A stretch of DNA of 64,000 nucleotides. It comes from Ectocarpus siliculosus (taxonomy: Eukaryota > Sar > Phaeophyceae > Ectocarpales > Ectocarpaceae). The DNA is taken from assembly GCA_000310025.1 (NCBI GenBank), contig FN649758.1, positions 3,708,665 to 3,772,664 of the forward strand. The letters are read 5' to 3'. The translations under genes and the position numbers were made by a program. Below, one piece after another: positions 29,901 through 47,460 of the stretch. Below the pieces are notes generated by a model. That model was not told the origin of the DNA. It made no database searches and was given only the letters and a program-made list of their open reading frames with translations. How positions within the stretch are numbered: position 1 is the stretch's first letter; every line of letters starts with the position of its first letter.

Positions 29901-31125
29901 TTCGGCCACCGCCGCACTCTCAGTAGGTCAGTCGGATCCGGAGCTCGAATAAAAACAATAGTCACTTGTACGGTGCCCTGCTACTGAGTGTGTGGCTGGC
30001 TTCGACCACCGCCGCACTCTCAGTAGGTTAGTCGGATCCGGAGTGCAAATACAAATAGTATTCACTTGTACGGTGCCCTCTTACTGAGTGTGTGGCTGAC
30101 CACCGCCGCACTCTCAGCAGGTTAGTCGGATCCGGAGTGCAAAAATTTAATAGTGCTTGACACAATGCGTCGCGTGTACGGTGCCCTGTTACTGAGCGCG
30201 AGGCTGGCTTCGGCCACCGCCGCACTCTCAGTAGGTCAGTCGGATCCGGAGCTCGAATACAAACAATAGTTACTTGTCCGGTGCCCTGCTACTGAGTGTC
30301 TGGCTGGCTTCGGCCACCGCCGCACTCTCAGTAGGTTAGTCGGATCCGAAGTGCAAACATTTAATAGTGCTTGACACAATGCGTCGCTTGTACGGTGCCC
30401 TCTTACTGAGCACGAGGCTGGCTTCGGCCGCCGCCGCACTCTCAGTAGGTTAGTCGTATCTGGAGTGCAAAATTCATATTGCTTGACATAACAAGTCCCT
30501 TGTACGGTGCCCTGCTACTGAGTGTGAGGCTGGCTTCGGTCACCGCCGCACTCTCAGTAGGTCAGTCGGATCCGGAGCTCGAATACAAACAATAGTCACT
30601 TGTACGGTGCCCTGTTACTGATTGTGAAGCTGGCTTCGGCCACCGTCACACTCTCAGTAGATTAGTCAGATCCGGAGCGCAAATACAATAATGATAGTCG
30701 CTTGGACGGTGTGCTGCTGCTGATTGTGAGGCTGGCTTCGGCCGCTGCCAAACTCTAAGTAGGTTAGTCGGATCCGGAGCGCAGTTTATGATAGCCACTT
30801 TCTACGATGCCCTGTTACTAAGCGTGTGGCTGGCTTTGGCCACCGCCGCACTAATGCCATCGTCGCACTCTAGTAGATTAGTCGAATCCGGAGTGCAATA
30901 AATCGCTCGAACGGTGCCCTGTTACTGAGCTCATGGCTGGCTTAAGCCATTGTCGAACGCTCGGTAGGTTCGTCGGACCCGGCGTGTAATAACGACCCTT
31001 ACCTTAACCCTAAACGTTGTGACTGGCTTCGGTCAGCGCCACAAACTCAGTAGGTTAGTCGATCAGGAGTACAAGAATAGTCGCTTTTACGGTACCCTGG
31101 CTGCTGATCGAGGCCGGCTTCGGCC
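26965..31125. repeat. Satellite array, about 40 units of ~100 bp
   Basis: Unit: TACGGTGCCCTGCTACTGAG, then a GC-rich core, then CTCAGTAGGTTAGTCGGATC and an AT-rich spacer. Most units are 97-101 bp. A second class of ~112 bp carries a spacer with TGCTTGACACAATACGTCGC. Most units contain GGATCC. Units 27.3-29.7 kb are very uniform; those past about 30.6 kb diverge progressively. Open frames of 65-140 codons on both strands are repeat artefacts. The core can fold as a UUCG-loop hairpin (see findings). Confidence 0.95.
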
Positions 31126-33429: not shown

Positions 33430-33725
33430 TGTTAAGGAGTGTGGCTGCTAGCTTAAATAGGGTACATCTTATTGTTGATAGGATGTGGGCCGGTCCCAGG
33501 AGGTATACCCTTCAGACACCTACCCTCTTAGGATTTGTCTAGTCTGCGTACCCCCTGAGGTGAAGTTGGATCCCCACTTCACCTCAGACCCTTGCTGATC
33601 GTCTCTCAGAAATAACAAGCAACTTTCTCATCTCTACGTGATCGTGGACAAGCGTGTCAACGACAGAACCTACCTTCATCTATCTCTAGGAGCAAGCTAC
33701 CGCCGACGGCTTCCCCTCCTTTAAA
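33430..33725 (+). repeat. 5' LTR of the Ty3/gypsy element
   Basis: Starts TGTTAAGGAG and ends CTCCTTTAAA, an imperfect inverted terminal repeat. It contains a perfect 12-bp inverted repeat (33555-33587: CTGAGGTGAAGT, 9-base loop, complement). No clear TATA box was assigned. Confidence 0.95.
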
Positions 33726-33745
33726 CTTGGCGTCAGCGGCATTAC
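33726..33745 (+). promoter_or_regulatory. Probable primer-binding site
   Basis: CTTGGCGTCAGCGG directly follows the LTR, where a tRNA 3' end would pair to prime minus-strand DNA synthesis. The cognate tRNA was not determined. Confidence 0.4.
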
Positions 33746-33888
33746 ACGGTAAGCAGGTGCTGGACGCGGCCTCCACACTGCTGTGTGTTGTTGTCACGCT
33801 TTCTTCACAATCACTGGGTTGTTGGTTATTTGGTCTCACCACCCACGAGAATCTAGACTTAGCCTTCTCTGCTTCTTCTCCTGTCGAG

Positions 33889-36800
33889 ATGCTGGCTTGC
33901 GATGCGTTTGCTAAGCGTCCGCGGGACTGGGACCTTGCGAAGGATACGCGCCTCGGCGGTCATCGCGATGTTGTAGGTGATTTTTCCTACGTTCGCCGCC
34001 CCTCCCGAGCTATTTTGTCTGCATCGGTCCATGAAGTTATTTCGGTGGCGGACACGCTTTGCATGCAGCAACCGGAGTTGTTGCCTTTGTGTAGTGGGAC
34101 TCGAGATGATAGCATGCTTCCCGCGTCCGCTACCACCTCTACTGCATTCATGCCGGCGTACCGGCCGATGTCCGCGGATTTCCCTGTGGTGCTCTCCGAT
34201 TTGACTCCGCTTGTTTCGACGTGGAGAGCATTGTGTGCACACAAATTGGGTGTCAGCCGCCCCACCAGCCTTCCCTCCATTTTTCGCAATCACATGGAAA
34301 TTTGTTTTGGAGCATCATTCACCCTCAAGGCATTTGAATTAGAAACCTTTCACCAGCGCAAACCCACAGCGGTCTTTGCTCGCACTTCGGCACCCGTTGT
34401 GGAGGAACGCCGTGCTGCTCTGCGTGTGTTTTGGTCGGACAATCTCGTGTCTCCATTTAATACCGGTCCTTTTGTGCTAGCTTCCACTGCTGTGTATGCG
34501 TGGCATGGTGTGCTTTTGGACGCCTTTTCTGCTTGGTTGGATCCGCTTCAACCTCGTGTGCATCAAGCTTTTATCACCGGGCGTATGCTATCCTGTGGGT
34601 ATCTCCGTTTTTCGCATGGACCTCGGCTTGCTTCTACCGCGATTACGCCCCGCTTTACTGTTTCCGCTGAAATCGGTTCTGCTGTCGCAACAGCGGTTGG
34701 GGGTGACACATCTGCTGTTGCTGGCCGTTCTGCACTTGTAAAAATCGATAGTAGCTGCCCTTCCTTTGGCCCTGTCTTTTTGAAAAAAGAGAACACCATG
34801 TCCAGCGGATACGTGGAACTGATGGACGGCAATGAGGAAATCCTCGATTACGAGGCCGAGGGCGAGCCGTCCACCGCGGAGCTGATTGCAGGGGCCGGGA
34901 CGGGCGACAAGAGCGAGTCCACTCCAGGCGAGTCCACAGCTGATGACCTGAGGAACAACATCGCCACGGCGGCTCCGGCGGACCTGGAACAGGCGTACAC
35001 CGCTGGACGGATCTCCCTGCGCGACGTGGTCAGGGCAGCTCGTTTGTCTCCTGGTTCCCCCATTTGCGCTCGCCCTTTCTCGCTCCCGCAGGAAGACACG
35101 GTGATGCACTTGCCGCAAGATGAGTTCGTCGCCTATCAAGAATTGACCGAGATGTGGCACCGCGGTCTGGCTAGCAAGGTCGCGGCGGCGGAAGAGCGGA
35201 AGCTGCTGGAGGAGCGTGAGGCTGCTCTGGCGGATGATGCGAGGAAGCAGGAGGAGGAGCGTCAGGCTGCTCTGGCGGAGGCTGCGAGGAAGCAGGCGAA
35301 GGAGCGTGAGGCTGCTCTGGCGGAAGCTGCGAGGAAGCAGGAGGAGGAGCGTCAGGCTGCTCTGGCGGAGGCTGCGAGGAAGCAGGAGGAGGAGCGCGAG
35401 GCTGCTCGGGCTGCTGCGCAGAAGAAAGCGGAACTAGCGGCGCGCGAGGAGTATGTCCGGGCTGCCAGGGCGAAGCAGGGGGCGCTCCGACCACGGCTGG
35501 AGGACCTCGAGCACCGGCCGCAAGCTTCAACTTTGCTTTCGCGACCCGCCCATCGTCGGGTCGTGCCCCCTCCCACGCCCCAGGCGGCTCCGGAAGTGGC
35601 TGCTGCTCCCCAGTTTTCTGTGACGCTGGGTAGGCCGGCCGGGGATGCCGACGGCGCGTCGGACGACGAAGCCAAGGAGTACAGGTTTCAAGCGGAGTAC
35701 ACAGCGTTCCTGTCCCGTCCCCTTTCCACGCCCACACACGTGATCACCTTCCATGATGCTGATCGAACTAGTGCCCTTTTTGCGTGGGCTGGCCTCCAAC
35801 AAATTGTGCGTGACCGCTGTCCCGATTCTTATACAGACCTTGGTTTTGCACATCTTGTATCGAGTCCATTCCTCGACCAGCTTGAACCGTCCTTACGACG
35901 GAGTGTGTTTCGGTTAGTGTCTGCTCTCCGTAGGGCTTCTTTCACCGAGGGTCCCCAGGGAACAGCGGTGGTGGTGCACAATGGGGGAATTCGGTTGCCG
36001 CTAGCTCGTACTACAACTAACGAAGATTTCCAGCATGATCTGCAGCTCCCTCAGCAGGATTCTGCAAGCCGTGTCCATGCTTCCGGAGGGACCAAGGACT
36101 ACAGTCTATCGGCGGCTCCTGCCTCCACCAGCCGGAGGAGCCGTTGGGGTGATCAAGCCCCCACGGACAAGAGCGGGACGGCCGAGCGCACTTCGCGAAG
36201 GCCGGGTGTCGAAGATGGCGGGCGGGGGTACGCGGGAACCCAACCTCCCAGATCTTCGTCCAAGCGTCGACACCGCGAGAGCCGGAGCAGGAGCCGGAGC
36301 CGGAGCACCGACCGACAGCAACGTCACGCGCCTTCGTCTCGGCGTGGTCGCAGCCGGAGCAGCGACCGTCGCGGGAGCAACACGCCTTCGCATAGGCGTA
36401 GCCGCAGCCGGAGCCCGACGAGGAGCGGGGGCAACAGCAGGGCGACCAGCTCGGACGGCGGTCGAGGGGGCAAAGGGCGACGGAAGTCAGGTCGGGGTCG
36501 CAGGCAAGTGCAGTATGATCGGTGTGATTTTCGTAGTTCTGGGCTGTTGGGGGAACGCAAGAATGCCTCAGAAGATGGTTCTCTCTGTTCTTCGCCACGG
36601 GTTTTGCGCCCCCCCGCTGATGTAGGACCGCCGCCCGTGTCTACTTTGGCGTTCAAACTTGCCAACATGCAACTTCGTGAACATTCCGCCGCGGTTAAAA
36701 GCCATGCCCCTACACACACCGTGGTAGCTCCGCCCACATCTTCCTTGCCTTTGGACGAACGGGTTGGTTCACCGCACAATGCTGCATCACACGCCTCGAC

Positions 36801-37518
36801 TTCGGCTTCCCGTACTGAAATGCTGTTGGAACAAGTGCTCACTCTCCTGCGCGCGCAAACGCCTGGCCACGTTGTGGATGCTGCTGCCGACTCGAATGTA
36901 CCACCTTCTGTGCCCTCGAACGCCCCTAGCATACCATTTTCCGCCCCACCTTTTTCGTCACGAGCGCATTTGGCACCACTGCAAGACCACGCTTCGAGTT
37001 CCTCGGGAGTTCGTCCAGGGCACGAGGTTCATGAAGAGGCGGCTGCCAGGGCCACGGCAGTGTCATCGTCATCAGCGCCGACCGCTCCAGCTCTGCCGCA
37101 ACCGCCTTTGGTGGTGCCATCAGCGTCGACCGCCCCAGCTCTGCCACAACAGCCTTTGGTGGTGCCCCCCCCCCTCCCGCGTCCGTCTATCCTGCTCGAT
37201 CCTTGCTTGGCGACCGGCCACGTCATCGCGTCACCGGCCCACGCGACATCGCCGTTGCCTCCGGATGATGCTAGCTTACCTTTGTCTTCCACGGGGGCGA
37301 GAGCGCGGCAGGAGGCTTTGGACGCCGCGGACGCCGCTGCAGCGGAGGCCGACACCATTCGCATTCAAGACAAGATGGACAAACTGAAGCCGGAACAACT
37401 TGATAGTGTCACACGCTTGCCCCTTGGTTCTGATCCCGATGAATTTGCTCGTTTCGCGTCTAGCTGCAAGGGCGTGGTCACCGAGATCCTCAACAAAAGC
37501 GACGTCAAACGCAAGTAG
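33889..37518 (+). CDS. Element ORF1: coiled-coil and SR-repeat protein (Gag N-terminal part or accessory)
   Basis: The frame is open from the primer-binding site; the first ATG is 33889 (1209 residues). A second well-placed ATG at 34798 (ACCATGT) would give 906. Features in order: an unassigned region; an acidic stretch; a charged Ala/Glu/Arg/Lys coiled coil encoded around 35180-35470 with repeated ARKQEEER; a region around 35640-36010 without known motif; an arginine-serine block (36260-36480) with SRSRSRS repeats, like splicing-factor SR domains; a Pro/Ala-rich tail. It stops at TAG 37516-37518. The -1 frame is open through this point into ORF2, so ORF1 and ORF2 may be one Gag separated by a programmed or accidental shift. 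Function is unknown; SR blocks usually bind RNA or nuclear import and splicing proteins. Confidence 0.8.
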   Translation: MLACDAFAKRPRDWDLAKDTRLGGHRDVVGDFSYVRRPSRAILSASVHEVISVADTLCMQQPELLPLCSGTRDDSMLPASATTSTAFMPAYRPMSADFPVVLSDLTPLVSTWRALCAHKLGVSRPTSLPSIFRNHMEICFGASFTLKAFELETFHQRKPTAVFARTSAPVVEERRAALRVFWSDNLVSPFNTGPFVLASTAVYAWHGVLLDAFSAWLDPLQPRVHQAFITGRMLSCGYLRFSHGPRLASTAITPRFTVSAEIGSAVATAVGGDTSAVAGRSALVKIDSSCPSFGPVFLKKENTMSSGYVELMDGNEEILDYEAEGEPSTAELIAGAGTGDKSESTPGESTADDLRNNIATAAPADLEQAYTAGRISLRDVVRAARLSPGSPICARPFSLPQEDTVMHLPQDEFVAYQELTEMWHRGLASKVAAAEERKLLEEREAALADDARKQEEERQAALAEAARKQAKEREAALAEAARKQEEERQAALAEAARKQEEEREAARAAAQKKAELAAREEYVRAARAKQGALRPRLEDLEHRPQASTLLSRPAHRRVVPPPTPQAAPEVAAAPQFSVTLGRPAGDADGASDDEAKEYRFQAEYTAFLSRPLSTPTHVITFHDADRTSALFAWAGLQQIVRDRCPDSYTDLGFAHLVSSPFLDQLEPSLRRSVFRLVSALRRASFTEGPQGTAVVVHNGGIRLPLARTTTNEDFQHDLQLPQQDSASRVHASGGTKDYSLSAAPASTSRRSRWGDQAPTDKSGTAERTSRRPGVEDGGRGYAGTQPPRSSSKRRHRESRSRSRSRSTDRQQRHAPSSRRGRSRSSDRRGSNTPSHRRSRSRSPTRSGGNSRATSSDGGRGGKGRRKSGRGRRQVQYDRCDFRSSGLLGERKNASEDGSLCSSPRVLRPPADVGPPPVSTLAFKLANMQLREHSAAVKSHAPTHTVVAPPTSSLPLDERVGSPHNAASHASTSASRTEMLLEQVLTLLRAQTPGHVVDAAADSNVPPSVPSNAPSIPFSAPPFSSRAHLAPLQDHASSSSGVRPGHEVHEEAAARATAVSSSSAPTAPALPQPPLVVPSASTAPALPQQPLVVPPPLPRPSILLDPCLATGHVIASPAHATSPLPPDDASLPLSSTGARARQEALDAADAAAAEADTIRIQDKMDKLKPEQLDSVTRLPLGSDPDEFARFASSCKGVVTEILNKSDVKRK

Positions 37519-37547
37519 ACTTTCACTTCCTCCACCTGGGTCGCAGG

Positions 37548-38678
37548 ATGGCTTCCGTTGTTGCGCAAACGTGTCGTGCTGCTGTCGTTGAAGGTCAAAC
37601 CACCAACCGTGCCACGCTGGAATTTCTTGATGCCACTTACCAACAGGTAGAAAACCATCTGCGCAAGGAACCGGCCGGGCCCTCGACGTACGCGTTCTTC
37701 ATCCAGAAATTGGCGGCTGCCTGGGACACTCAAGACAAGAGCTCGGGGATTGATCGTCTTCGTAGTTTTGGCGTGTCCACCGGCGAGACTTACGGAGAAT
37801 ACATTCGTCGCTATAAGGCTCTGGCCATGACCGTCATGGTTTCTCACCACGCGTTCAAGCCTTCGGATGCGCAAGTGCAGATAGCTGTTCGAGACTCCAT
37901 GTTGAAGCAGTTTCCCGTAGTGTCTGGACAGGTGTACAAGGATGAGCAGCTCTCCATGGAAGCCCCTTTTGGGCGACATGCTTCGTGCTTGGACGATATG
38001 TGGGATGTGTTGGACAAGCGTGCATTCGCGCACACGCCGGCGGTACATGGGGACGATTTTTTTTCGGTGTCTTCCACGAATGCTAGGAGTTCGTCTGCTG
38101 TTTCGCGTGCTGTAGCTTCTTCGGCGTTGCATTCGTCGGTGACCCCTTCGTGGAGCCGAGGTTCTTCGGCTGCGGTGATGAGTGTTGACCCCCTGCCTAA
38201 TGATGATCGGGACCCTTTTCTGTTGCACTACAGCGACTGGCCGTTGCAAGGACACTTTCAAGAGGTGTACAATGTCGCTAGTGAGATGGCTCTAACCAAG
38301 AATGATCCGCCATTGTTCACCCCCTTGGTCTCAGCTGAAGACCGCCGCAACGCGCTTCGGCCGTACAAGGGCAAGTGCCTCAACTGCTTAGGCGAAGATC
38401 ACTCCTTCAAATCCTGTACTCGTGGTTTCATTAACGCCACAGGCCTGCTTAACAATGACATCAAGCTCTGCATGGAAAAAGATCCCGCACTTTGGAGTCG
38501 GTGGAAAAAGCGCATGACCTCGTATAGACGCCCTACAGGACACAACCCACCCCGTAATCACTCCTCCGGACGAGCCCGCCGCTCATTTGACACATCGGAC
38601 ATGAAACAGTCCTCACACACAGAACCCTCGTCGGAGACTTCCACTTCGGCTAAGAGGGGCTGGAAGGGTAAGAAATGA
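37548..38678 (+). CDS. gag: Element ORF2: Gag capsid/nucleocapsid
   Basis: 376 residues from ATG 37548. The middle has the retrotransposon Gag pattern (FFIQKLAAAW ... GETYGEYIRRYKAL), which forms the capsid. A CX2CX4HX4C zinc knuckle, CLNCLGEDHSFKSC, at residues 277-290 binds element RNA. The tail is basic and Ser-rich. The frame ends at TGA 38676-38678 but stays open without another stop for 448 more codons (ORF3), a Gag-readthrough arrangement. The start codon lies 29 bases after the ORF1 stop. Confidence 0.88.
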   Translation: MASVVAQTCRAAVVEGQTTNRATLEFLDATYQQVENHLRKEPAGPSTYAFFIQKLAAAWDTQDKSSGIDRLRSFGVSTGETYGEYIRRYKALAMTVMVSHHAFKPSDAQVQIAVRDSMLKQFPVVSGQVYKDEQLSMEAPFGRHASCLDDMWDVLDKRAFAHTPAVHGDDFFSVSSTNARSSSAVSRAVASSALHSSVTPSWSRGSSAAVMSVDPLPNDDRDPFLLHYSDWPLQGHFQEVYNVASEMALTKNDPPLFTPLVSAEDRRNALRPYKGKCLNCLGEDHSFKSCTRGFINATGLLNNDIKLCMEKDPALWSRWKKRMTSYRRPTGHNPPRNHSSGRARRSFDTSDMKQSSHTEPSSETSTSAKRGWKGKK

Positions 38679-40025
38679 CTTGCCGATGGCGGAGTTCAGC
38701 CGGTACTGCCGTCAACAGCAACCACCGTGCACCCTTTTGGAGTCTCCCAAGATGTTCGTGTACAGCCTACTTCTTTGGATACTCCCGATGTCCCCAAATC
38801 ACGTTTAGTTTCTCGGCCCGCCTCCTCGTCGCCCGCCTCCTCGTCGCCCGCCTCATCGTCTGCTGGTATTGGACATGACAAACCCACTCCGGCACAACCT
38901 TTGTGGTGTGGGCGACAGGGAGGTAAGACGTCGAGCGGTTCACCCCTGCTCACCTCGTCGTCTCGGGTTACAGAAGGAACAAGAACCTCGTCTACTACTG
39001 TTCGCCAAGACTCTTCTGGTGTTGTCAGCCGGGCCTCTTCTCGGATAGCACACGAGCCTTCTTCTACATTCGCCAGGGATCCCGTCGATTCTCCTTCTCT
39101 TTCGCGGCTTTCGTTGTCTTCGACCGTCCGCTGCCCCCGTGTGACAGCACCTGATACGAATGCGTCTTCCTCTGCTGCCCACAACGTGCTGACTGCACCA
39201 CTGCCATCGGGATCGGATGGTAGTGCCCACCATTCTGTGGAAGGTTCGGCTCCTTTGTCACGGGGGAGTAGTCCAGAGCGCCCTGCGTCCATTCACACAC
39301 ATCCGTCTGCCGCAGGAAAGACTTCTCCTATCGAACGGGTCTCTCATAGCCGAATGGCCTCTGCTAACATTGACCTCGCCGGAGCCGCCGCTCGTAGGCC
39401 GCCCTCCGGATCATGGACCGGAACGACTTCGCCCGCTCCTCCCTCGCTTTCTGGGTCCTCCCCGTCGGAGATGAGGACCCGTCCGCTTGGCTCACCCCCG
39501 CCCGTGCCTGGTGCCCGCTCTTTGCCCCTCCGCCCTGCACCGGCTCCGCCGTTTGATGACAAATGCGAGTACGCTTCGGATGACGTCCTCCTCTTCTGGA
39601 AACCTCCGTCTGTGTTCTCGCAATGGACTCCCTCGGCTTTTGACGTACTGGGGGTACGTTATTCATGTGGTGAGCTATTTATGATGTCTGAAAAAGCGAA
39701 GTTGTTTGGGGATATGACGTCGTATGACAAAATCATGGCGGCAACCGATCCTAAGACACACAAGTACTTAGGTCGTAACGTACGTCCTTTTGACTATGCC
39801 GAATGGGAGCGTCGTCGAGAAGAGATCGTGCTTACGGGGTCGTATGCCAAATTCGCTCAGAACCACGACATGAAACAACATTTACTGGAGACGGGTACCC
39901 GCCTCCTTGCGGAAGCCAGCCCCTTTGATCGTGTTTGGGGTATCGGCATGTCTGCATGCTTTCCGGAGGCTAGCATTTCATCCAAGTGGGCGTCTAGCGG
40001 TAAAAACTTGTTGGGAAAAGCTTGA
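38679..40025 (+). CDS. Element ORF3: Pro/Ser-rich linker plus NADAR (YbiA-like) domain
   Basis: In frame with Gag after the TGA, with no ATG at its head, so it is best read as a readthrough extension. The first ~290 codons are Ser/Pro/Thr-rich linker. From about 39565 a NADAR/DUF1768 domain follows: VLLFWKPPSVFSQW, CGELFMMSEKAKLFGD, KYLGRNVRPFD, WERRREEIVL, KFAQN, LLETG, EASPFDRVWGIGM, NLLGKA. NADAR enzymes cleave N-glycosidic or ADP-ribose linkages; known members include YbiA and guanine-ADP-ribose hydrolases of DarG1 type. The conserved C-terminal LMxVRxxL is missing before the TGA (40023-40025) but is encoded in the -1 frame at once (LMEVRRLL), which opens Pol. Residues typical of the fold are kept, so activity is plausible. 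Confidence 0.85.
   Translation, partial: LADGGVQPVLPSTATTVHPFGVSQDVRVQPTSLDTPDVPKSRLVSRPASSSPASSSPASSSAGIGHDKPTPAQPLWCGRQGGKTSSGSPLLTSSSRVTEGTRTSSTTVRQDSSGVVSRASSRIAHEPSSTFARDPVDSPSLSRLSLSSTVRCPRVTAPDTNASSSAAHNVLTAPLPSGSDGSAHHSVEGSAPLSRGSSPERPASIHTHPSAAGKTSPIERVSHSRMASANIDLAGAAARRPPSGSWTGTTSPAPPSLSGSSPSEMRTRPLGSPPPVPGARSLPLRPAPAPPFDDKCEYASDDVLLFWKPPSVFSQWTPSAFDVLGVRYSCGELFMMSEKAKLFGDMTSYDKIMAATDPKTHKYLGRNVRPFDYAEWERRREEIVLTGSYAKFAQNHDMKQHLLETGTRLLAEASPFDRVWGIGMSACFPEASISSKWASSGKNLLGKA
40013..40019 (+). promoter_or_regulatory. Predicted -1 ribosomal frameshift site G GGA AAA
   Basis: The heptamer fits X XXY YYZ in the ORF3 frame (codons GGA AAA), then GCT and the TGA stop. Slipping back one base gives GGG AAA AGC TTG ATG GAA, which enters the Pol frame and completes the NADAR domain with no gap. 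The closely related G GGA AAC is the site used by several retroviruses. A GC-rich stretch follows that could form the stimulatory structure. Confidence 0.75.
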
Positions 40026-43000
40026 TGGAAGTTCGGCGCCTTTTGCGGGATCATCCCCTGTCTGGCGAAGCTCTCCCCGCCTCCACTTCCCCCACCCCCC
40101 CCATTTCGCAGCCTCTTCCCCATGGCCGTAGACGCATCCACGAGGTTGCTACCGCGGCCGGTTCGTCGTCACGGGAGGACCGGGGTGAAGACCCAGCTTG
40201 TCTCCGTTTGGACGCTCCGGGGGACCATGCTCCTGGTGTTCATCTGGTGGCCTCGACCTCCGTTTGTGCAGACCAACCTCCTCTTCTGGAACACGGGCCC
40301 GATCTGGTCGGCGGCACGCTCCTGTTGGACTCGGACTCTTACACCACCCGGGTTCTGCTGCATGGAGGACCTACAGCCACTTCTCAACTCGCGCGAGTGG
40401 CACTGCTGGACTCTGGGTCTCCTGCGTCTTTTGTGTCCGACTCCGTGGTCACCGCCATGATCGCCACTGGAGCCTTGACAGCTGGCAGCGTTCGTGTTTC
40501 GCCCTCTCGTCGTTGGGGTGGGTTTGGTGATGGACCCGCCCTTGTGACCACTCGGTCAGTTCGTCTCACCGTTAATTTTCTTCATGGAGCTCGAGCTACC
40601 GCTTCTTTGGCGGTCTGGGCCTGCGTTGTTCCAGATGCCGCCATGGGGCACGCCGTGCTTCTGGGTCGTGATAGCTGGATGCGGTTCAACTCTCGCGTGT
40701 TCACCACCCTCCCCCACCCTGGACCGGACGGCCGGGTTATGGGCGAGCTCACGCTCTCTCCGCGTTTCGCCGCTGGCGCTTGTGTTTACGCTACACACGA
40801 CGACGCTCCTGCCTCTTCGTTTCACCTCAAATATGCAGGGAGCTCGGGCATTTCCTTGGGGCCGGAGCCTGCCCTTGTTGAGGTGGACCTCGTCCGTTCT
40901 TCGGGCATGCCTGCGCTGATCGGCGAATATCTCGTATCGTTCCGACCTGAAGTGGGTGCACTTTCGTCCCCCGATGCATTTGTTTCCAATGGTCTTCAGC
41001 GTATTCCCCTTGCAGGTTGTGCCGAATTGGAGCCGGGCGACGTTCTTGGCGTGTCTGCTGCACCGATATTACGAGTACCGGTAGAAACCCTGATGGCGGC
41101 TCCATCTTCGACTCCCACCGCCCCCCCGTCCTCTACATCACCGCATCGGGTCAACGCCGTTGGCCCCAAGTCCGGGACTCGCCGCTCTCCGGACCCAGCC
41201 TCCGCCCCGCCTCCTCCGAAGCCGCCTCCACAAGAACTGCTTGACCGCTTCTCCGAGGCCCAGCGCTCCAGTTTTCTGCGATTGTGGACTAGGCTGCCCG
41301 CACATATGCACGACATCGCTTTCGATCTACACAACCCGGGATGGACACCGGAGGCTATTGATCGTTTGGCCGACGCCCTTGTTGAGTATTCCGACGTGTT
41401 CTCTACTTCGAAAACCGATTTTGGTTCCTGCACCGTCATGCCATTCACTCTTTTTGTCCCCGCAGGGACGAAGCCCGTTGCATCACGCCCGTATCGTATT
41501 AACCCGTTAATGCAGAAGAAAGTGGATGCCGTCTTGGACCAGTATTTGGCGGCAGGGCTCATTCAGCATTCCACTTCTCCCTGGGCTTCTCCCCTGGTCG
41601 TCATCCCCAAGAAGGACGGATCGGTTCGCATCGCCGTCAACTACAAACGACTCAACGCCCTGGTGGACTTGGATGGACAACCTCTCCCTCGGGTGGACGG
41701 TATCTTGGATTCTCTCTACACCGGGAAAGTGTTCTCCATCTTCGATCTCAATTCGGCCTTCCACCAGATCGTTTGTGACGAAGACACTGTCCCGCTCACC
41801 GCCTTTTGCACTCCCACGCAGTTGTTCGAATGGCTTCGGATGCCGCAAGGAGCCAACGCAAGCCCGTCTTGGTTCGTCAAGGTCATCAACAGAGTGGTGC
41901 ACGGTCTGGAGCGTGTGCTTGCCTATCTGGATGATGTTATCTGTTTCGATGAGGAACTTCTGGGACACGTGCTCAACATGACCGAGTTTTTCAAACGGCT
42001 ACGCCAGTACAACCTCAAGCTGTCTCCAGGGAAGGCTCGTGTCGGCGCCACCCACGCCAATTTCCTCGGTCACACCATCTCCCCGGCTGGGGTTAGCCCT
42101 GATGGCGTCAAGGTTCGGGCGCTCACGCACATGCCGCCGCCGACGAATGTTAAGCAGCTTAGGAGCCTCCTCGGTGGCCTCAGCTACTACCGGAAATTCC
42201 TTCAGAATCTCGCCACCAAGGTGCGGCCTCTCAACTCTCTTCTCAAACAAGGCGTCCCCTTCAAGTACACCCCGGGCATGGTCAAGGTTGTCAAAACGTT
42301 GTTGAGCGAACTCGCGCGTCCCCCGATTTTGGTCTTCCCGGATTGGGCTGCGGTCGAGGACAACAGCCGTCCTCTCCGTTTGTGCTCCGACGCGTGCATT
42401 GACGGCTTTGGAGCCTCCCTGGAACAAGAACAACTCGATGGCTCGGTAAGACCCATTGTGTACATCAGCCGCGCTACTCTTCCGGCGGAGCGGAACTGGA
42501 CTGTTCTGGATCTGCAAGCTGGTGGCATTGTTTGGGCCATTATGCGCCTTCGGGGCTATTTGTGGTCAACCAAGTTCATCATCTATTCAGATCACAAAGC
42601 CTTAGAGAGCATTGGCAAGGTTGGAGAACACAACGCCAGGGTACAACGATGGCTCGAATTCCTGTCCAACTTCACCTACACCCTGAAATATCGGAAAGGT
42701 TCGGCAAACGGCAACGCGGATTTCCTTTCGCGGCTGCCTTTACCAGCACAAGACACGGACACAACCGGCCCCGATTGCATTGATGGTGTCGATCACGCTG
42801 GTGTCTTCCTCATTCGGGCTTGTGGACTCAACTATCACTCGTCGTCTACGCCGGAGGTCGGTTTGGGTGGGCTCCGCCCTCCCTGCTCGGCGGGAGCCTT
42901 TTCACCCCCAGCGCTACAGCCATCCGATTTTGGGGATTTTCGCCGTCATCACCCGCGCCGGCTGGATGTTCGATCGAACTCACCGATTGATTATCAAGAT

Positions 43001-45823
43001 TTTCGGAGGTCTTCGGGAGTCTTCGTGGTCTCACATGTTTCCGCGTCTCCGGTGCCTGTTTCCTCTTTGGCTCCGGCTACGTCCCGCGGAATGTCTCCGG
43101 CCGCGTCTCTGGCGAATAGATATGTGCACGTCCTGTCTTCGCTTCCGGAGCGGGGACCGCTCATTTCTTCACGAACTCGGGCCAAGACCACCGCTGCTAC
43201 TGGAGGCGCCGTCACCGGTCCCACCTATTTCGGACGCCAGCCGCGGGCTACCATCGTCCCTCGGGCATCGTCCACTGCCCGTAGTCCTAGCAGGTCCCGC
43301 TCGACAAACAAGACCATCCGGACCGGCACGCGTCCCCTGCCGTCATCTGCGAAGCCAACGTCGGCGTTTTCGTCGACTGCCTCTGCGCCACCGGTGCCTT
43401 CGCCGGCATCGGCGCGCGCTGCATCCTCGGTTTTGCCTTCTATCCAGGTTTCGCCTGGGACTTCGCCCCTCCCGATGCCTCCTCCTAGGGTGACACCGCT
43501 GTCTGCAACTTCACCAGTCGTTGAGGCTCCTCGTTCTACAGCCTCTTCCGTGGGATCGCTTGACTCTGGGTTGGAGCCGACTGACTTGGACCCCTCACAT
43601 TTGCGAGCTTGCGTTCAGAGCTTCGGCACTGTGGACTGGGCTAGGGAACAACAGCGGGAGAGCGAATGCGTGGTGGCTATGCGTTTTCTGTCTCGTGGCT
43701 CTCCCTCCCCACCCCCTTCTGACTTGCTCACCCTTAGTGCCCCGCTCCGCTCCCCTCGGTTAGACGATGTCCTTGCGTTGGCGGCGAAAACCAGGCTGCA
43801 CACGACCGATGATAACGTCACCCTTCTCGTACATAAATCGGCGCCATCGCCGATCGGACGCTCTGGTGGCAGGACCACTCGTCTACCGGATACTGGTGTG
43901 CCCCGTGTCTACGTGCCCATGCTGATGCGTCCGTGGGTCCTTCATGCCTGCCATACCGCCGCGTCCTTCCATCTCGGTGTTCATCGTACACAACGTCCGC
44001 TTGAGCGTTTCTACTGGTGGATTGGTCTGGATCGTTCTGTGCGCTGGTGGCTTCGAGCGTGTTTGGTGTGTCAAGCTCGCAAGACTTCGCGTCAAACCGC
44101 TCGGTGGCCCGTCATCGCTATGCCATTGCCACAGGGGCCTGGTACGGTCGTCGGCGTCGACTTCTTCGGACCCCTGCCCGTGACTGCCAAGGGCAACTCC
44201 TACATTTTGTTGTTCACAGACCGTTTCAGCCGGAGAGCCGACATGTTCGCGGTTACAGCGGCGGAATTTACGGCGAAAGGGACGGCTCACATCTTCGTCA
44301 ACCAGTACATGACCAAGTGGGGATGTCCGACTACGTTATTGTCGGACAACGGACTGCATTTCTGCTCGAAGCTCTCCATGGCGATCTACGAGGTGATGAA
44401 AATCAAGAAAGTCACCACCAGCTCCTACCACCCGCAAACCAACGGCGGCACGGAACGCGTCAATCACACGATGGCTCAGATGCTTGCGGTAGTCGTCAAC
44501 GAACAGCAAAACGATTGGGACGTACATCTCCCGCACGTTGAATTTGCCTACAACAATTCCGTGAACCAGTCGACTGGATTGGCGCCGAACGAGATCCATA
44601 TCGGACGCATTCCGCGGCTTCCGCTTTCAGTCTTCGATCATCCAACGGTAGGTGGTCATCAAAACTTAGCCCGTGACCAACTCGAGTACTGCAACTTGGC
44701 TGTCGATCGTCAGCGCCGGGCCTACGACCTGGTCCGTGAGTACAACGCCCTGAAGATCTCGCGAGTCGAACGCCGTAATTCATCCCTGCTGGACGCCATC
44801 CACAAGCTCCCGCAATTTACTGTTGGCGGGTGGGCTTGGGTCTACAACACGGCTGCTACAATTCGACAGGGTGTGAGGAAGGACACGGATCAACAGGTGC
44901 TCAAGGCCAAATTCGCGCTTTCCTGGACGGGGCCTTACAAAGTTCTTGCGGTGGGTCCCGCTTCGGCCGACGCCACCCCAGATGGAAGCCCGTTGGCGCG
45001 TAAACTCCTCTACCTGGACCTGCCTTCTGATCTTTCCGGCCCCGCAGCTCGATGTCGCGTATCTGTCCTTCGTTGCAAGCCCTGTCGCAATCCATACGAG
45101 ACAGACGACCTGCCCCAATCTCTACCCGCTGAGCTTTCGCGTTATGTCCTGCACTCTTTCGGCGATAAATGTCCACCGTTGCACGTCACCGCAGATGATG
45201 TGTCGGTGCCTGTCGGGCGCCTCGAGGTCGACTACATTTCGGGACACCAATTGGTGCGGGGCCGTAGCGGCGTTCTCGCTGTCCTGTACCAGACGCATTG
45301 GCTAGGCCTGACTACTCCTTCTTGGGAACGGGAGTCCGACCTCGATCAATTCCGTCGACACATCCTCTTGTACTGGTCTCGAGAGGTCTGCCAAAGCAAG
45401 CAGGGTAACCGCACGTATCGAGTGGCTCGGACACGCGCGGCACAACGGGAGCTAGCCCGGAATCGTGGCGAACGCTATTTGCCTCCTGGGGCTGACCTTG
45501 TGCTTCACGCGACTTGGCTCCGTCGTTTCAGCATTTCGCCCCTTCCAGTTGGAGCGCGGCTGTGGTACAAGGCCCGCGACGGATTATGGTGGACAGGACG
45601 TATTGGTGCTCATCAGGACGGCTCGTACATCGTTCGATTTCTGGATGACCCGGGCCCCAGCGTTCTCCCTCTGCCTGCGCACCTCTACTCCACCGCCTTG
45701 GACGCCGTCTGTGGATCGTGGTGTTTAGAAAAACATCGCTCGCGCCCTTTGGGCGACGCCCGGGATCGCACTCCTCCCATTACTGACTCCTTACCGTCGG
45801 CTGTTCCCAATATCTCTTCCTAG
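40025..45823 (+). CDS. pol: Pol polyprotein: protease, RT, RNase H, integrase, chromodomain-like, Tudor-like
   Basis: The frame opens at 40022; the first ATG (40025) overlaps the ORF3 stop as TGATG. Numbering is from that ATG. Protease LLDSGSP (D129). RT motifs: VNYKRLNALVDLD, FSIFDLNSAFHQ, FLGHTISPAGV and AYLDDV with Y634-L-D-D. RNase H has acidic residues D789 (CSDACIDG) and D856 (YSDHKAL). Where other elements have the catalytic Glu, this one reads TVLDLQAGG with Gln. Integrase has a His/Cys zinc region (CLVCQARK) and a perfect D1379-D1441-E1477 triad with 35 residues between the last two. After it, residues ~1730-1785 resemble a chromodomain (TPSWERESDL) and ~1843-1886 a Tudor-like barrel (GARLWYKARDGLWWTGRIG). 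It replicates the element and inserts the cDNA, with the C-terminal modules likely steering integration to modified chromatin. Confidence 0.95.
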   Translation: MEVRRLLRDHPLSGEALPASTSPTPPISQPLPHGRRRIHEVATAAGSSSREDRGEDPACLRLDAPGDHAPGVHLVASTSVCADQPPLLEHGPDLVGGTLLLDSDSYTTRVLLHGGPTATSQLARVALLDSGSPASFVSDSVVTAMIATGALTAGSVRVSPSRRWGGFGDGPALVTTRSVRLTVNFLHGARATASLAVWACVVPDAAMGHAVLLGRDSWMRFNSRVFTTLPHPGPDGRVMGELTLSPRFAAGACVYATHDDAPASSFHLKYAGSSGISLGPEPALVEVDLVRSSGMPALIGEYLVSFRPEVGALSSPDAFVSNGLQRIPLAGCAELEPGDVLGVSAAPILRVPVETLMAAPSSTPTAPPSSTSPHRVNAVGPKSGTRRSPDPASAPPPPKPPPQELLDRFSEAQRSSFLRLWTRLPAHMHDIAFDLHNPGWTPEAIDRLADALVEYSDVFSTSKTDFGSCTVMPFTLFVPAGTKPVASRPYRINPLMQKKVDAVLDQYLAAGLIQHSTSPWASPLVVIPKKDGSVRIAVNYKRLNALVDLDGQPLPRVDGILDSLYTGKVFSIFDLNSAFHQIVCDEDTVPLTAFCTPTQLFEWLRMPQGANASPSWFVKVINRVVHGLERVLAYLDDVICFDEELLGHVLNMTEFFKRLRQYNLKLSPGKARVGATHANFLGHTISPAGVSPDGVKVRALTHMPPPTNVKQLRSLLGGLSYYRKFLQNLATKVRPLNSLLKQGVPFKYTPGMVKVVKTLLSELARPPILVFPDWAAVEDNSRPLRLCSDACIDGFGASLEQEQLDGSVRPIVYISRATLPAERNWTVLDLQAGGIVWAIMRLRGYLWSTKFIIYSDHKALESIGKVGEHNARVQRWLEFLSNFTYTLKYRKGSANGNADFLSRLPLPAQDTDTTGPDCIDGVDHAGVFLIRACGLNYHSSSTPEVGLGGLRPPCSAGAFSPPALQPSDFGDFRRHHPRRLDVRSNSPIDYQDFRRSSGVFVVSHVSASPVPVSSLAPATSRGMSPAASLANRYVHVLSSLPERGPLISSRTRAKTTAATGGAVTGPTYFGRQPRATIVPRASSTARSPSRSRSTNKTIRTGTRPLPSSAKPTSAFSSTASAPPVPSPASARAASSVLPSIQVSPGTSPLPMPPPRVTPLSATSPVVEAPRSTASSVGSLDSGLEPTDLDPSHLRACVQSFGTVDWAREQQRESECVVAMRFLSRGSPSPPPSDLLTLSAPLRSPRLDDVLALAAKTRLHTTDDNVTLLVHKSAPSPIGRSGGRTTRLPDTGVPRVYVPMLMRPWVLHACHTAASFHLGVHRTQRPLERFYWWIGLDRSVRWWLRACLVCQARKTSRQTARWPVIAMPLPQGPGTVVGVDFFGPLPVTAKGNSYILLFTDRFSRRADMFAVTAAEFTAKGTAHIFVNQYMTKWGCPTTLLSDNGLHFCSKLSMAIYEVMKIKKVTTSSYHPQTNGGTERVNHTMAQMLAVVVNEQQNDWDVHLPHVEFAYNNSVNQSTGLAPNEIHIGRIPRLPLSVFDHPTVGGHQNLARDQLEYCNLAVDRQRRAYDLVREYNALKISRVERRNSSLLDAIHKLPQFTVGGWAWVYNTAATIRQGVRKDTDQQVLKAKFALSWTGPYKVLAVGPASADATPDGSPLARKLLYLDLPSDLSGPAARCRVSVLRCKPCRNPYETDDLPQSLPAELSRYVLHSFGDKCPPLHVTADDVSVPVGRLEVDYISGHQLVRGRSGVLAVLYQTHWLGLTTPSWERESDLDQFRRHILLYWSREVCQSKQGNRTYRVARTRAAQRELARNRGERYLPPGADLVLHATWLRRFSISPLPVGARLWYKARDGLWWTGRIGAHQDGSYIVRFLDDPGPSVLPLPAHLYSTALDAVCGSWCLEKHRSRPLGDARDRTPPITDSLPSAVPNISS

Positions 45824-45939
45824 CGTCGCCGTTTTAGGTTCGAGTTGGTCTATCTTGGATTTTGTTTGTTTGTTTGTTTGTTTGTTTGTTTGTTCGTTTG
45901 TTTGTTTTTTTTGTTTTTGTTTTTGTTTTCTCCGTGTGG

Positions 45940-46139
45940 TTTGCCTCTGAACACTTGGAAAAAGAGTTCCCCAAGTTTCGTCGGTGTTCTTTGCCTCTGA
46001 ACACTTGGAAAAAGAGTTCCCCAAGTTTCGTCGGTGTTGTTTGCCTCCGAACACTTGGAAAAAGAGTTCCCCCAGTTTCGTCGGTGTTCTTTGCCTCTGA
46101 ACACTTACACAACGAGTTCCCCAAGTTTCGTCGGTATGT
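45940..46139 (+). repeat. Four 50-bp tandem repeats downstream of pol
   Basis: Units start at 45940, 45990, 46040 and 46090, each with TTTGCCTCTGAACACTTGGA and CCCAAGTTTCGTCGGT. The fourth unit is the most diverged, and a fifth partial copy trails to about 46175. The period is not a multiple of three, so frames run through all three phases; it is unlikely to be coding. Confidence 0.9.
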
Positions 46140-47149
46140 TCGCCTCTGACCAGGCAAACACCGAGTTTCTCGTGTTTCCCTTGGTTCGCCTTTTGCCACC
46201 TCATTTTTTATTTTTAGCTCCACCGTGTCGCCGAAGTGTCATCTAGGCCTGTTACTTCGGGCTTCCATCCCGTGGCGTCGTCTTCTCCCGTGGACATTCG
46301 TCGTCATCCACACTTCGTTCTACTTCGTCTCCGTCATCGCTCCCTGCAGGCGACGCCTTCATCATCGTCGAGCCCTTGAGTCGTTGTGTTGTTGTGTGTA
46401 TCTCTGCGACTTTTCTGTGTTGTTTGAGTCTTCCTGTGTTGTGCGTTGCCAGCGAGCCAGGGCAAGTTCGTCAGATCGCTTCTCAGACGTTGATCATTCA
46501 TGCTTTGCATTCTTGGTTTTCTTTGCGTCTTGCCGTGGCCGCCTCTCTATACGGTTTGAGTTCTCTGACACGCTGGAAATTGTTGTCAGTGTGTTCGCCT
46601 GTCATTCATTTCTCCTGCCCTTCTTTGACGCTTTCCTAGATTGGTTGCGTTGATATCTTCCCCTTTACGTCGCGTCCAGTATCAAAGGCCGTATTCGTTC
46701 GGAAATTTGCTTGGGTTTTGAGTTTTGTTGCCGTATTTTGGGGCTCTCTCGGGTAGTCGCCCTCATTCCTCCCATTGTCATACGCGCGGGTGCGCGTAAA
46801 AGAGTGGTGTGTGGCGTTTAGGTTTTGACTTTATTTCTCTTGCCGTCGTCTGTTGCGGATAGCGTGCTGTGCAGCACTACATATTTTTCTTGGCCTTATC
46901 CCTTCATTGGTAGGAGCGTTGTCATTGAGATGTCGATGTGTTGTCTCGTGGCCGTTCGCATCCATCTTTCGTCTCAATGATGGTGTGGGGGTTGATTCGG
47001 GATGTTTCTACAACTCACCCTCCTTTTTGGATGTTTTGTGAAGAGTCATATCTTCGATTCATGAGCATCAATCGTCAGCTAAAATCTTCGTTGTAGCTTT
47101 TAGGATTTGAGCATTGATTTGAGTATAGAATCTGCATATATGATATTCA

Positions 47150-47160
47150 GGGTGGGCTAG
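47150..47160 (+). promoter_or_regulatory. Probable polypurine tract
   Basis: GGGTGGGCTAG abuts the 3' LTR, where plus-strand DNA synthesis would start. It is weakly purine-pure, so the exact primer is uncertain. Confidence 0.35.
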
Positions 47161-47456
47161 TGTTAAGGAGTGTGGCTGCTAGCTTAAATAGGGCACATCT
47201 TATTGTTGATAGGATGTGGGTCGGTCCCAGGAGGTATACCCTTCAGACACCTACCCTCTTAGGATTTGTCTAGTCTGCGTACCCCCTGAGGTGAAGTTGG
47301 ATCCCCACTTCACCTCAGACCCTTGCTGATCGTCTCTCAGAAATAACAAGCAACTTTCTCATCTCTACGTGATCGTGGACAAGCGTGTCAACGACAGAAC
47401 CTACCTTCATCTATCTCTAGGAGCAAGCTACCGCCGACGGCTTCCCCTCCTTTAAA
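47161..47456 (+). repeat. 3' LTR of the Ty3/gypsy element
   Basis: Same length as the 5' LTR with two base differences in its first ~70 bases. It carries the same 12-bp hairpin at 47286-47318. Confidence 0.95.
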
Positions 47457-47460
47457 ACAA

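Follow-up and report, generated by a model that had tools for sequence, protein, structure and literature searches.

A 14-kb Ty3/Gypsy LTR retrotransposon in the 189-Mb genome of Ectocarpus siliculosus carries a NADAR domain at the N-terminus of Pol, and this domain was shown to be under purifying selection. The element lies at 33430-47456 of the window, the stretch of 64,000 nucleotides that was analysed. Sequence comparison supports an intact active site in which the ADP-ribose-contact residues are retained. We regard as about evenly balanced the full reading that a YbiA-type NADAR is made within this Gag-Pol by UGA readthrough, enters particles with the reverse transcriptase (RT) and likely removes ADP-ribose from element RNA or cDNA. 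The NADAR-Gypsy fusion itself is already in print, since Dinatale et al. (2025, PMC12477816) describe it in Ectocarpus, e.g. in Gypsy-12_Ec32; an earlier note on this DNA had left open whether it was described. The available text of PMC12477816 is silent on how the UGA is placed, on selection acting on the domain, on retention of its active site and on a tie to an algal cellular gene. New here are the UGA layout, the selection test, the marking of a lineage, and the grouping with algal cellular NADARs apart from bacteria.

The features of the element are collected in the table. Its assignment to Ty3/Gypsy follows from the LTRs, the target-site duplication and the order RT, RNase H, integrase, with the integrase core below its cut-off. 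Gag was assigned by motif and position, as the CCHC zinc knuckle CLNCLGEDHSFKSC occupies 38376-38417 and Pfam gave one sub-threshold unrelated match and no Gag match; 45-bp tandem repeats lie at 35208-35411 inside the N-terminal Gag part. The protease region showed the D-S-G motif alone and no Pfam protease match. NADAR follows the Gag zinc knuckle and precedes the protease motif and RT, at the Pol N-terminus as in the Gypsy lineage of Dinatale et al. However, that lineage is described with a C-terminal chromodomain, and a Pfam search of the present element at E<=1 found none. The likeness to Gypsy-12_Ec32 is one of description and does not imply family-level identity with its consensus.

Features of the NADAR-bearing element, in window positions
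Feature	Position	Strand	Evidence or remark
5' LTR, 296 bp	33430..33725	+	blastn 99.3% to 3' LTR, 2 mismatches/296, gap-free
Likely 4-bp target-site duplication ACAA	33426-33429 and 47457-47460		flanks both LTRs
N-terminal part of long Gag (ORF1 of the earlier note)	33727..37518	+	ORF limits; the true start may lie elsewhere
C-terminal Gag part with CCHC zinc knuckle	37548..38678	+	TGA at end
Gag stop TGA then C, predicted readthrough site	38676..38679	+	common to copies
Ser/Pro-rich low-constraint linker	38679..39557	+	dN/dS
NADAR domain	39594..40022	+	Pfam, phmmer, AlphaFold2, Foldseek
Last NADAR motif LMEVRRLL, Pol frame in window copy	40022..40060	+	
Aspartic protease motif D-S-G (LLDSGSPASF)	40409..40417	+	motif level
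Reverse transcriptase	41603..42079	+	PF00078, E 1.4e-25
RNase H	42359..42673	+	PF17917, E 4e-26
Integrase zinc-binding domain	43913..44086	+	PF17921, E 6.8e-13
Integrase core	44135..44434	+	PF00665, E 2e-6, 28.4 bits, below curated cut-off 32.6
3' LTR	47161..47456	+	blastn vs 5' LTR

The earlier note had read NADAR motifs between Gag and protease at 39565..40060. All of them are present there, and the limits are right within about ten codons. The call held up in a profile search by hmmscan (window 38679-40022), which matched PF08719 strongly (E 7.7e-40; score 137.2 bits, cut-off 35.1; profile positions 2-154 of 163) and thus rules out a chance motif match. By phmmer, the domain matched the ADP-ribose-bound NADAR of P. 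nicotianae (8bau) at E 9.7e-14. An AlphaFold2 model (pLDDT 96.4) gave 8bau as the top Foldseek match (E 3.1e-11, TM 0.85) and YbiA 2b3w at TM 0.69, so a NADAR fold is predicted.

As for the active site, 11 of the 13 ADP-ribose contact positions named for 8bau were identical in the element domain by the phmmer alignment, namely E43, K50, K75, G78, R79, V81, W89, R93, E125, D130 and W133 in P. nicotianae numbers; the other two are Y84, replaced by F, and D86, replaced by Y. Counted from window position 39540 as residue 1, the domain residues are E45, K52, K75, R79, W89, R93, E125, D130 and W133. Among the alignable own-genome pieces, E43 is kept in 49/50, K50 in 49/50 and E125 in 48/50, while the D86 position is variable (Y in 38/51). 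The glutamate at 125 falls within strand 122-125 of the predicted model and is of the YbiA type, not the aspartate of the DarT1-associated antitoxin. The residue after the first catalytic-site glutamate is L in the window copy and one other, and Q in 36 of the 38 readable sequences. Conservation was further measured over 12 distant own-genome copies, drawn from the 21 outside two close groups after nine broken or partial ones were excluded: nine side-chain sites were 96% identical to the window versus 61% elsewhere, a value equalled by 45 of 100,000 random nine-site sets.

The domain is widespread in the genome, with at least 150 NADAR matches above cut-off, 22 of them inside open frames of more than 2,000 aa. 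Its presence in the element is not decay. Over four distant pairs, dN/dS was 0.17-0.20 for NADAR (95% ranges within 0.09-0.32) and 0.70-0.79 for the linker (ranges 0.51-1.13; pooled 0.73). The RT value was 0.03-0.04, hence NADAR is less constrained than RT. Meanwhile, the NADAR and RT distances correlated over 12 elements (Mantel r 0.95, with none of 5,000 shuffles as high), indicating that NADAR has long been kept as part of the element. One copy, L042, gave a Gag dN/dS above 1, which was disregarded because L042 has no blastn match in the Gag region. It was also observed that dN/dS in group B was elevated (gag 0.64, RT 0.46), probably owing to badly aligned copies.

The earlier note had described separate ORFs, and here the copies told otherwise. 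ORF1 and the zinc-knuckle part of Gag share a frame in 32/37 testable sequences, Gag and NADAR in 26/35, and NADAR and Pol in 19/38; copies deviating from the single frame bear indels of their own. The interruption common to the copies is one TGA that parts Gag from NADAR. By global alignment it is followed by C in 34 of 40 sequences, the remaining six having no alignable site, and L041 is counted among the 34 though it has no blastn match across the site. The same TGA and C, in the same frame, occur in subfamilies L061 and L062 (NADAR 55-57% identical); the Gag end of L063 was too broken for the comparison. As this UGA-C is the sole interruption kept after Gag, NADAR-Pol is likely made by its readthrough. 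Gag and pol of the Candida retrotransposon Tca2 are likewise parted by UGA, with a potential 3' pseudoknot named in PMC2194720, whereas the RNA just 3' of the present UGA had no unusual fold (z -0.38) by a method that is blind to pseudoknots.

A programmed -1 frameshift across NADAR was considered for the offset between ORF3 and Pol, where a slippery-looking run is present. It was rejected: over the window and 39 copies, the domain continues past the LMEVRRLL junction in one frame in 31/40 sequences. The other nine are the window itself, six that break before this point or are heavily degraded, and L040 and L043, whose extraction ends short. The offset is therefore private to the window copy, in which LMEVRRLL does stand in the Pol frame as the earlier note said, and the frame breaks of the window copy are its own.

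Related domains in known systems were compared. The P. nicotianae NADAR (PMC11543638) shares the fold and the contacts counted above, but lies outside any retrotransposon and is 28% identical by structural alignment. The Tx1 LINE NADARs of Pacific oyster, known here from the description in PMC12477816, are likewise in a retrotransposon protein, although that protein is ORF1 of a LINE and the domain is called divergent there. Nidovirus and other RNA-virus polyproteins join NADAR to a polymerase polyprotein as well (PMC9503650); those domains sit in replicases, and Foldseek hits so named were 21-27% identical in structural alignments. The likeness to DarG1 drawn in the earlier note stands in part, as the equivalents of its E88, K95 and K115 are kept in the element (E43, K50 and K75). 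However, the catalytic Asp171 of DarG1 is a glutamate in the element, and searching the genome exon by exon, an approach limited by introns, gave no match to a DarT partner (PF14487).

In the preferred reading, the UGA after Gag would be read through to give NADAR-Pol, NADAR would be packaged into element particles with RT, and it would strip ADP-ribose from element RNA or cDNA, the host modification being countered presumably ADP-ribosylation of the element nucleic acid. The nearest biochemistry bearing on such likely erasure, and on the counter-defence put forward in the earlier note, is that of the NADARs assayed in two papers, an oomycete one included, which are reported to remove ADP-ribose from guanine (PMC11543638, PMC11125620). 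The E. coli YbiA acts in vitro yet fails to protect cells from DarT1 (PMC11125620), and E125, which places the domain with YbiA, counts against the preferred reading. The same holds for the failure to identify a host writer, the L next to the first catalytic-site glutamate of the window copy, the ordinary RNA fold after the UGA, the weaker constraint on NADAR than on RT and the two long relatives that lack NADAR. It is possible instead that the domain acts on small ADP-ribose or NAD-derived molecules, or in element RNA processing, and not on ADP-ribosylated bases. The YbiA-type glutamate would fit this, small ADP-ribose derivatives are argued to be the main substrates of phage NADARs (PMC9503650), and RNA processing is the role hypothesised by Dinatale et al. 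(PMC12477816). On the other hand, being fused into a polyprotein points to a substrate that is bound and close by, not to a metabolite of the cytosol, and the NADARs of eukaryotic RNA viruses are argued to target macromolecular ADP-ribosylation (PMC9503650). That the domain is a metabolic N-glycosidase, the role put forward for YbiA in riboflavin biosynthesis (PMC7922944, PMC9503650), is very improbable: YbiA is of the same superfamily, but among solved structures the nearest is the oomycete NADAR with bound ADP-ribose, not YbiA, and why a retrotransposon should retain such an enzyme for long is not evident.

Protein substrates are a rather improbable reading, by which ADP-ribose would be removed from, e.g., Gag or insertion-site chromatin to counter silencing. 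PARP-like exon matches do occur in the host genome, but the four are weak (E 4.5e-6 to 4.3e-4; two of them contain an internal stop; 0/14 control genomes gave a signal in this exon-by-exon search), and no assayed NADAR is seen to act on proteins in the available portions of the literature. We give still less weight to a non-catalytic exaptation, in which the fold would serve as a tether that binds nucleic acid or ADP-ribose, or as a structural part of Pol; NADAR adjoins Gag and the variable D86 contact is lost, but the distal-ribose glutamates E43 (49/50) and E125 (48/50) and the lysine K50 (49/50) are kept. Finally, many copies are broken as expected of a captured passenger without function, a reading that is next to negligible given the co-inheritance with RT and the lineage-wide presence; the dN/dS of NADAR against that of the linker rules out a dead passenger.

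ADP-ribosylation of nucleic acids is a defence among bacteria and phages. A selected NADAR beside RT is a concrete place to seek a eukaryotic counterpart, and the selection and active-site results make the published annotation a testable claim. The role of NADARs across eukaryotes is called unclear in PMC11125620. Exon-by-exon searches of the host genome for DarT, Tpt1/KptA and PARP identified no writer acting on nucleic acid, Tpt1/KptA giving no match. We would venture only tentatively that the Gypsy lineage packages a nucleic-acid de-ADP-ribosylase by readthrough and so protects its RNA and growing cDNA against a putative algal guanine-ADP-ribosylation defence, with the cellular NADAR as a host copy exchanged between host and element, whether by capture into the element or by domestication from it.

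NADAR marks one Gypsy lineage, which is new relative to the published annotation. It was found in 23 of 44 relatives, three of these (P0122, P0147 and P0191) being partial or oddly placed. None of the three outcomes that the earlier note named as contrary to its reading was observed, since the profile hit is strong, the active-site residues are kept and the domain recurs in related elements. Among the 21 relatives without it, 19 are truncated, i.e. have fewer than 650 residues ahead of the RT segment (with 641, P0159 is borderline), and P0141 and P0169 are long.

A brown-algal cellular NADAR gene was also found in the own genome (L060) and as P0004, P0005, P0008 and P0009, 52-58% identical to the element domain. 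In contrast to the element, it lies in four pieces in the genome, has an N-terminal cysteine motif, is 227-252 aa long and lacks Pol. A quick tree took 113 of 151 rows; a row had to span three quarters of the domain, except that own-genome rows were kept regardless. In a 55-row tree drawn from these, the elements and algal cellular rows formed one clade (96/93) that also took in P0036, a metagenome protein on a long branch; a group without P0036 was tolerated (p-AU 0.337). The 54-row tree had six new rows and lacked P0127, P0128, P0001, three near-identical own copies and the outgroup rows P0034, P0036, P0041, P0081 and P0135; it joined elements and cellular rows at 98/98 against 19 outgroup rows, two fungal-named, one from EukProt and none bacterial-named. 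Named bacterial NADARs were therefore added in an 80-row tree, which uses 34 of the best 80 of 201 loci; the nearest among those best 80, from a Myxococcales MAG, is 55% identical.

Element NADARs thus group with algal cellular NADAR genes. PMC12477816 suggests horizontal transfer on the basis of bacterial blastp hits. In the 80-row tree, elements, cellular rows and P0036 stood apart from all 34 bacterial rows (95/86), hence the tree does not support a recent transfer straight from bacteria into the element, and the whole element and cellular group may be of older bacterial source. Within the group, the elements came together at 64/68 with the cellular gene as sister in the 55-row tree, while the cellular gene was nested in the elements in the 54-row tree (83/74) and, with P0036 also nested, in the 80-row tree (84/80); the elements as one clade were not rejected in either (p-AU 0.55 and 0.363, respectively).

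The element in the window that bears NADAR has the Ty3/Gypsy order of reverse transcriptase (RT), RNase H and integrase domains in Pfam, with the integrase core below the curated cut-off. The earlier note had placed a NADAR domain between Gag and protease, and the profile search bore this out: PF08719 (E 7.7e-40, 137.2 bits) lies between the Gag zinc knuckle and the protease motif. The Pol C-terminus gave no Pfam match at E ≤ 1. In the available text of Dinatale et al. (2025, PMC12477816), chromodomains or a Tudor domain are reported for Ectocarpus Gypsy lineages. The same text describes a NADAR-retrotransposon fusion for Ectocarpus sp. 7 and suggests an RNA-processing role; no further report of such a fusion was found in the literature searched.

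Features of the element and its surroundings (positions in the window unless contig C24 of the same genome is named)
Feature	Position	Remarks
Large tandem array, ~100-bp units	26972-30852	31 units at 27193-30357; ~2.6 kb upstream of element
LTR retrotransposon	33430-47456	two 296-bp LTRs differing at 2 positions; ACAA at both flanks
Gag zinc knuckle	38376-38417	
Ser/Pro-rich linker	38679-39557	between Gag stop and NADAR
Residue after first active-site glutamate	39675-39677	L in the window copy and one other copy (L038); of 38 readable sequences, 36 have Q
Protease motif	40409-40417	motif level only
Pol C-terminus	45000-45820	by eye chromodomain-like, then a Tudor-like stretch
Four 50-bp tandem repeats	45940-46149	between Pol end and 3' LTR
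111-bp GC-rich tandem repeats, 8 copies	52996-53924	surrounding stretch 67% G+C
Brown-algal cellular NADAR gene	C24:2124500-2128000	four pieces

We aligned the NADAR of the element by phmmer to 8bau, the Phytophthora nicotianae NADAR structure with ADP-ribose. Residue numbers from the available text of PMC11543638 were carried to the 8bau chain via a two-residue offset, after which all 13 named letters agree. Eleven of these 13 contact positions are identical in the element (E43, K50, K75, G78, R79, V81, W89, R93, E125, D130 and W133), while Y84 is replaced by F, retaining the aromatic ring, and D86 by Y. Hence the loss of active-site residues considered in the earlier note was not seen in this alignment. 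Among 51 pieces from the same genome, E43 and K50 are each conserved in 49 of 50 alignable sequences and E125 in 48 of 50. After 9 broken or partial copies had been set aside, 12 distant ones were compared: the nine side-chain sites were 96% identical to the window versus 61% at other sites, a value reached by 45 of 100,000 random nine-site sets. The AlphaFold2 model (pLDDT 96.4) extends to residue 161 and does not include the last helix. Foldseek ranked 8bau top (TM 0.85) and YbiA next (TM 0.69).

All 150 scored candidates (of 230) in the whole genome (189.5 Mb, 492 contigs) passed the cut-off, giving at least 150 NADAR matches, with broken and partial copies included. Stop-free open frames of 2,014-2,580 aa enclose 22 of the 150, leaving out two rows with one stop and two with frames of 6,365 and 10,887 aa; the piece at the 10,887-aa location contains N. 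The adjoining linker served as internal control for selection. In four chosen between-subfamily pairs (copies L020 and L031, each against L042 and L044), dN/dS was 0.17-0.20 for NADAR, 0.70-0.79 for the linker and 0.03-0.04 for RT; pooled over pairs of copy groups A-D and B-D, it was 0.17 for NADAR and 0.73 for the linker. Constraint on NADAR is thus weaker than on RT.

Reading frames were compared in the window and 39 further copies, in pieces of ~5 kb. ORF1 lies in the same frame as the Gag part with the zinc knuckle in 32 of the 37 sequences that could be tested; the figure is 26 of 35 for Gag with NADAR and 19 of 38 for NADAR with Pol. NADAR is open in one frame beyond the window's break point in 31 of 40 sequences; the nine exceptions are the window, six copies broken earlier or degraded, and two outside the extracted coverage. 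The interruption common to the copies is the Gag stop: global alignment shows this TGA with a C after it in 34 of the 40 sequences (including L041, a copy without a blastn match at the site), the other six having no alignable site. TGA-C is again the sole stop in frame from the zinc knuckle to NADAR in subfamilies L061 and L062 (NADAR identity 57% and 55%); the sequence of a third subfamily, L063, is too degraded there for a reading. Termination at UGA-C is leaky. Because the common interruption is a single TGA-C in this context, NADAR-Pol is likely to be made by readthrough of the Gag stop. The RNA downstream of the stop showed no unusual fold in the window copy (z -0.38).

When the protein collection was searched with the NADAR region of an element frame, 23 proteins were obtained, 9 having both RT and NADAR by precomputed Pfam domains. 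Proteins from this search and the best 120 of 1,075 RT-search matches formed the RT set. The screen of related elements, as proposed in the earlier note, showed that relatives do contain the domain: of the 44 proteins whose RT shares 50% identity or more with that of the window, 23 have NADAR. Nineteen of the 21 without it begin too close to RT to contain it, whereas P0141 and P0169 are long enough yet lack it. P0141 and P0117, both from Ectocarpus sp. CCAP 1310/34, are RT relatives 95-96% identical in the RT protein search. Below 50% RT identity (maximum 41%), NADAR occurs in 1 of 79 proteins, P0129, from the same strain. NADAR and RT distances of 12 elements were correlated (Mantel r 0.948, 0 of 5,000 shuffles). 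The share of NADAR-bearing relatives and this correlation together mark NADAR as an old, co-inherited feature of one Gypsy lineage, also present in other public assemblies.

As to the origin of the domain, bacterial transfer to the element was suggested from blastp in the available text of PMC12477816. Among the named bacterial NADARs compared, the nearest by identity is from a Myxococcales MAG (55%). The window's genome also holds a cellular NADAR gene, and related genes occur in Ectocarpus, Pylaiella and Scytosiphon. Against an Ectocarpus protein, three of its pieces match at 83%, 95% and 90%, and the fourth at 62% over a stretch running beyond its exon. Together with the RT relatives of 95-96% identity, these matches make an Ectocarpus-like brown alga the likely host. 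In a tree that included 34 named bacterial NADARs, 32 element rows and 5 cellular rows formed one group separate from all bacterial rows (branch supports 95/86), with the long-branch protein P0036 inside; trees without the named bacteria gave this group 96/93 and 98/98. Because elements and cellular rows group apart from every bacterial row, the trees favour an exchange of the domain between the alga and the element over its direct acquisition by the element from bacteria. AU tests reject neither arrangement of the branching order inside the group, and the older source of both may have been bacterial. Near the N-terminus, the cellular NADARs L060, P0004, P0005, P0008 and P0009 share a cysteine/histidine motif with the pattern PGCSxxC...HDYCGxTHA; fungal PARP-like proteins have similar motifs. 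The available text of PMC7922944 describes Esi0017_0056, an Ectocarpus NADAR protein of 391 aa that is induced by stress and may be either cellular or element-borne.

The NADARs assayed in the available texts of PMC11543638 and PMC11125620 remove ADP-ribose from guanine. In the most likely mode of action, NADAR at the head of Pol would be produced at readthrough level, would enter particles together with RT, and could clear ADP-ribose from element RNA or cDNA. Exon-by-exon genome searches, whose sensitivity is restricted by introns, gave 0 matches for DarT, 0 for Tpt1 and four weak matches for PARP, and no ADP-ribosyl writer was identified in them. In the environmental proteins P0133-P0136, several ADP-ribose erasers are joined in a single chain; P0134 combines microbial PARG, ADP-ribosylglycohydrolase, NADAR and Macro domains.
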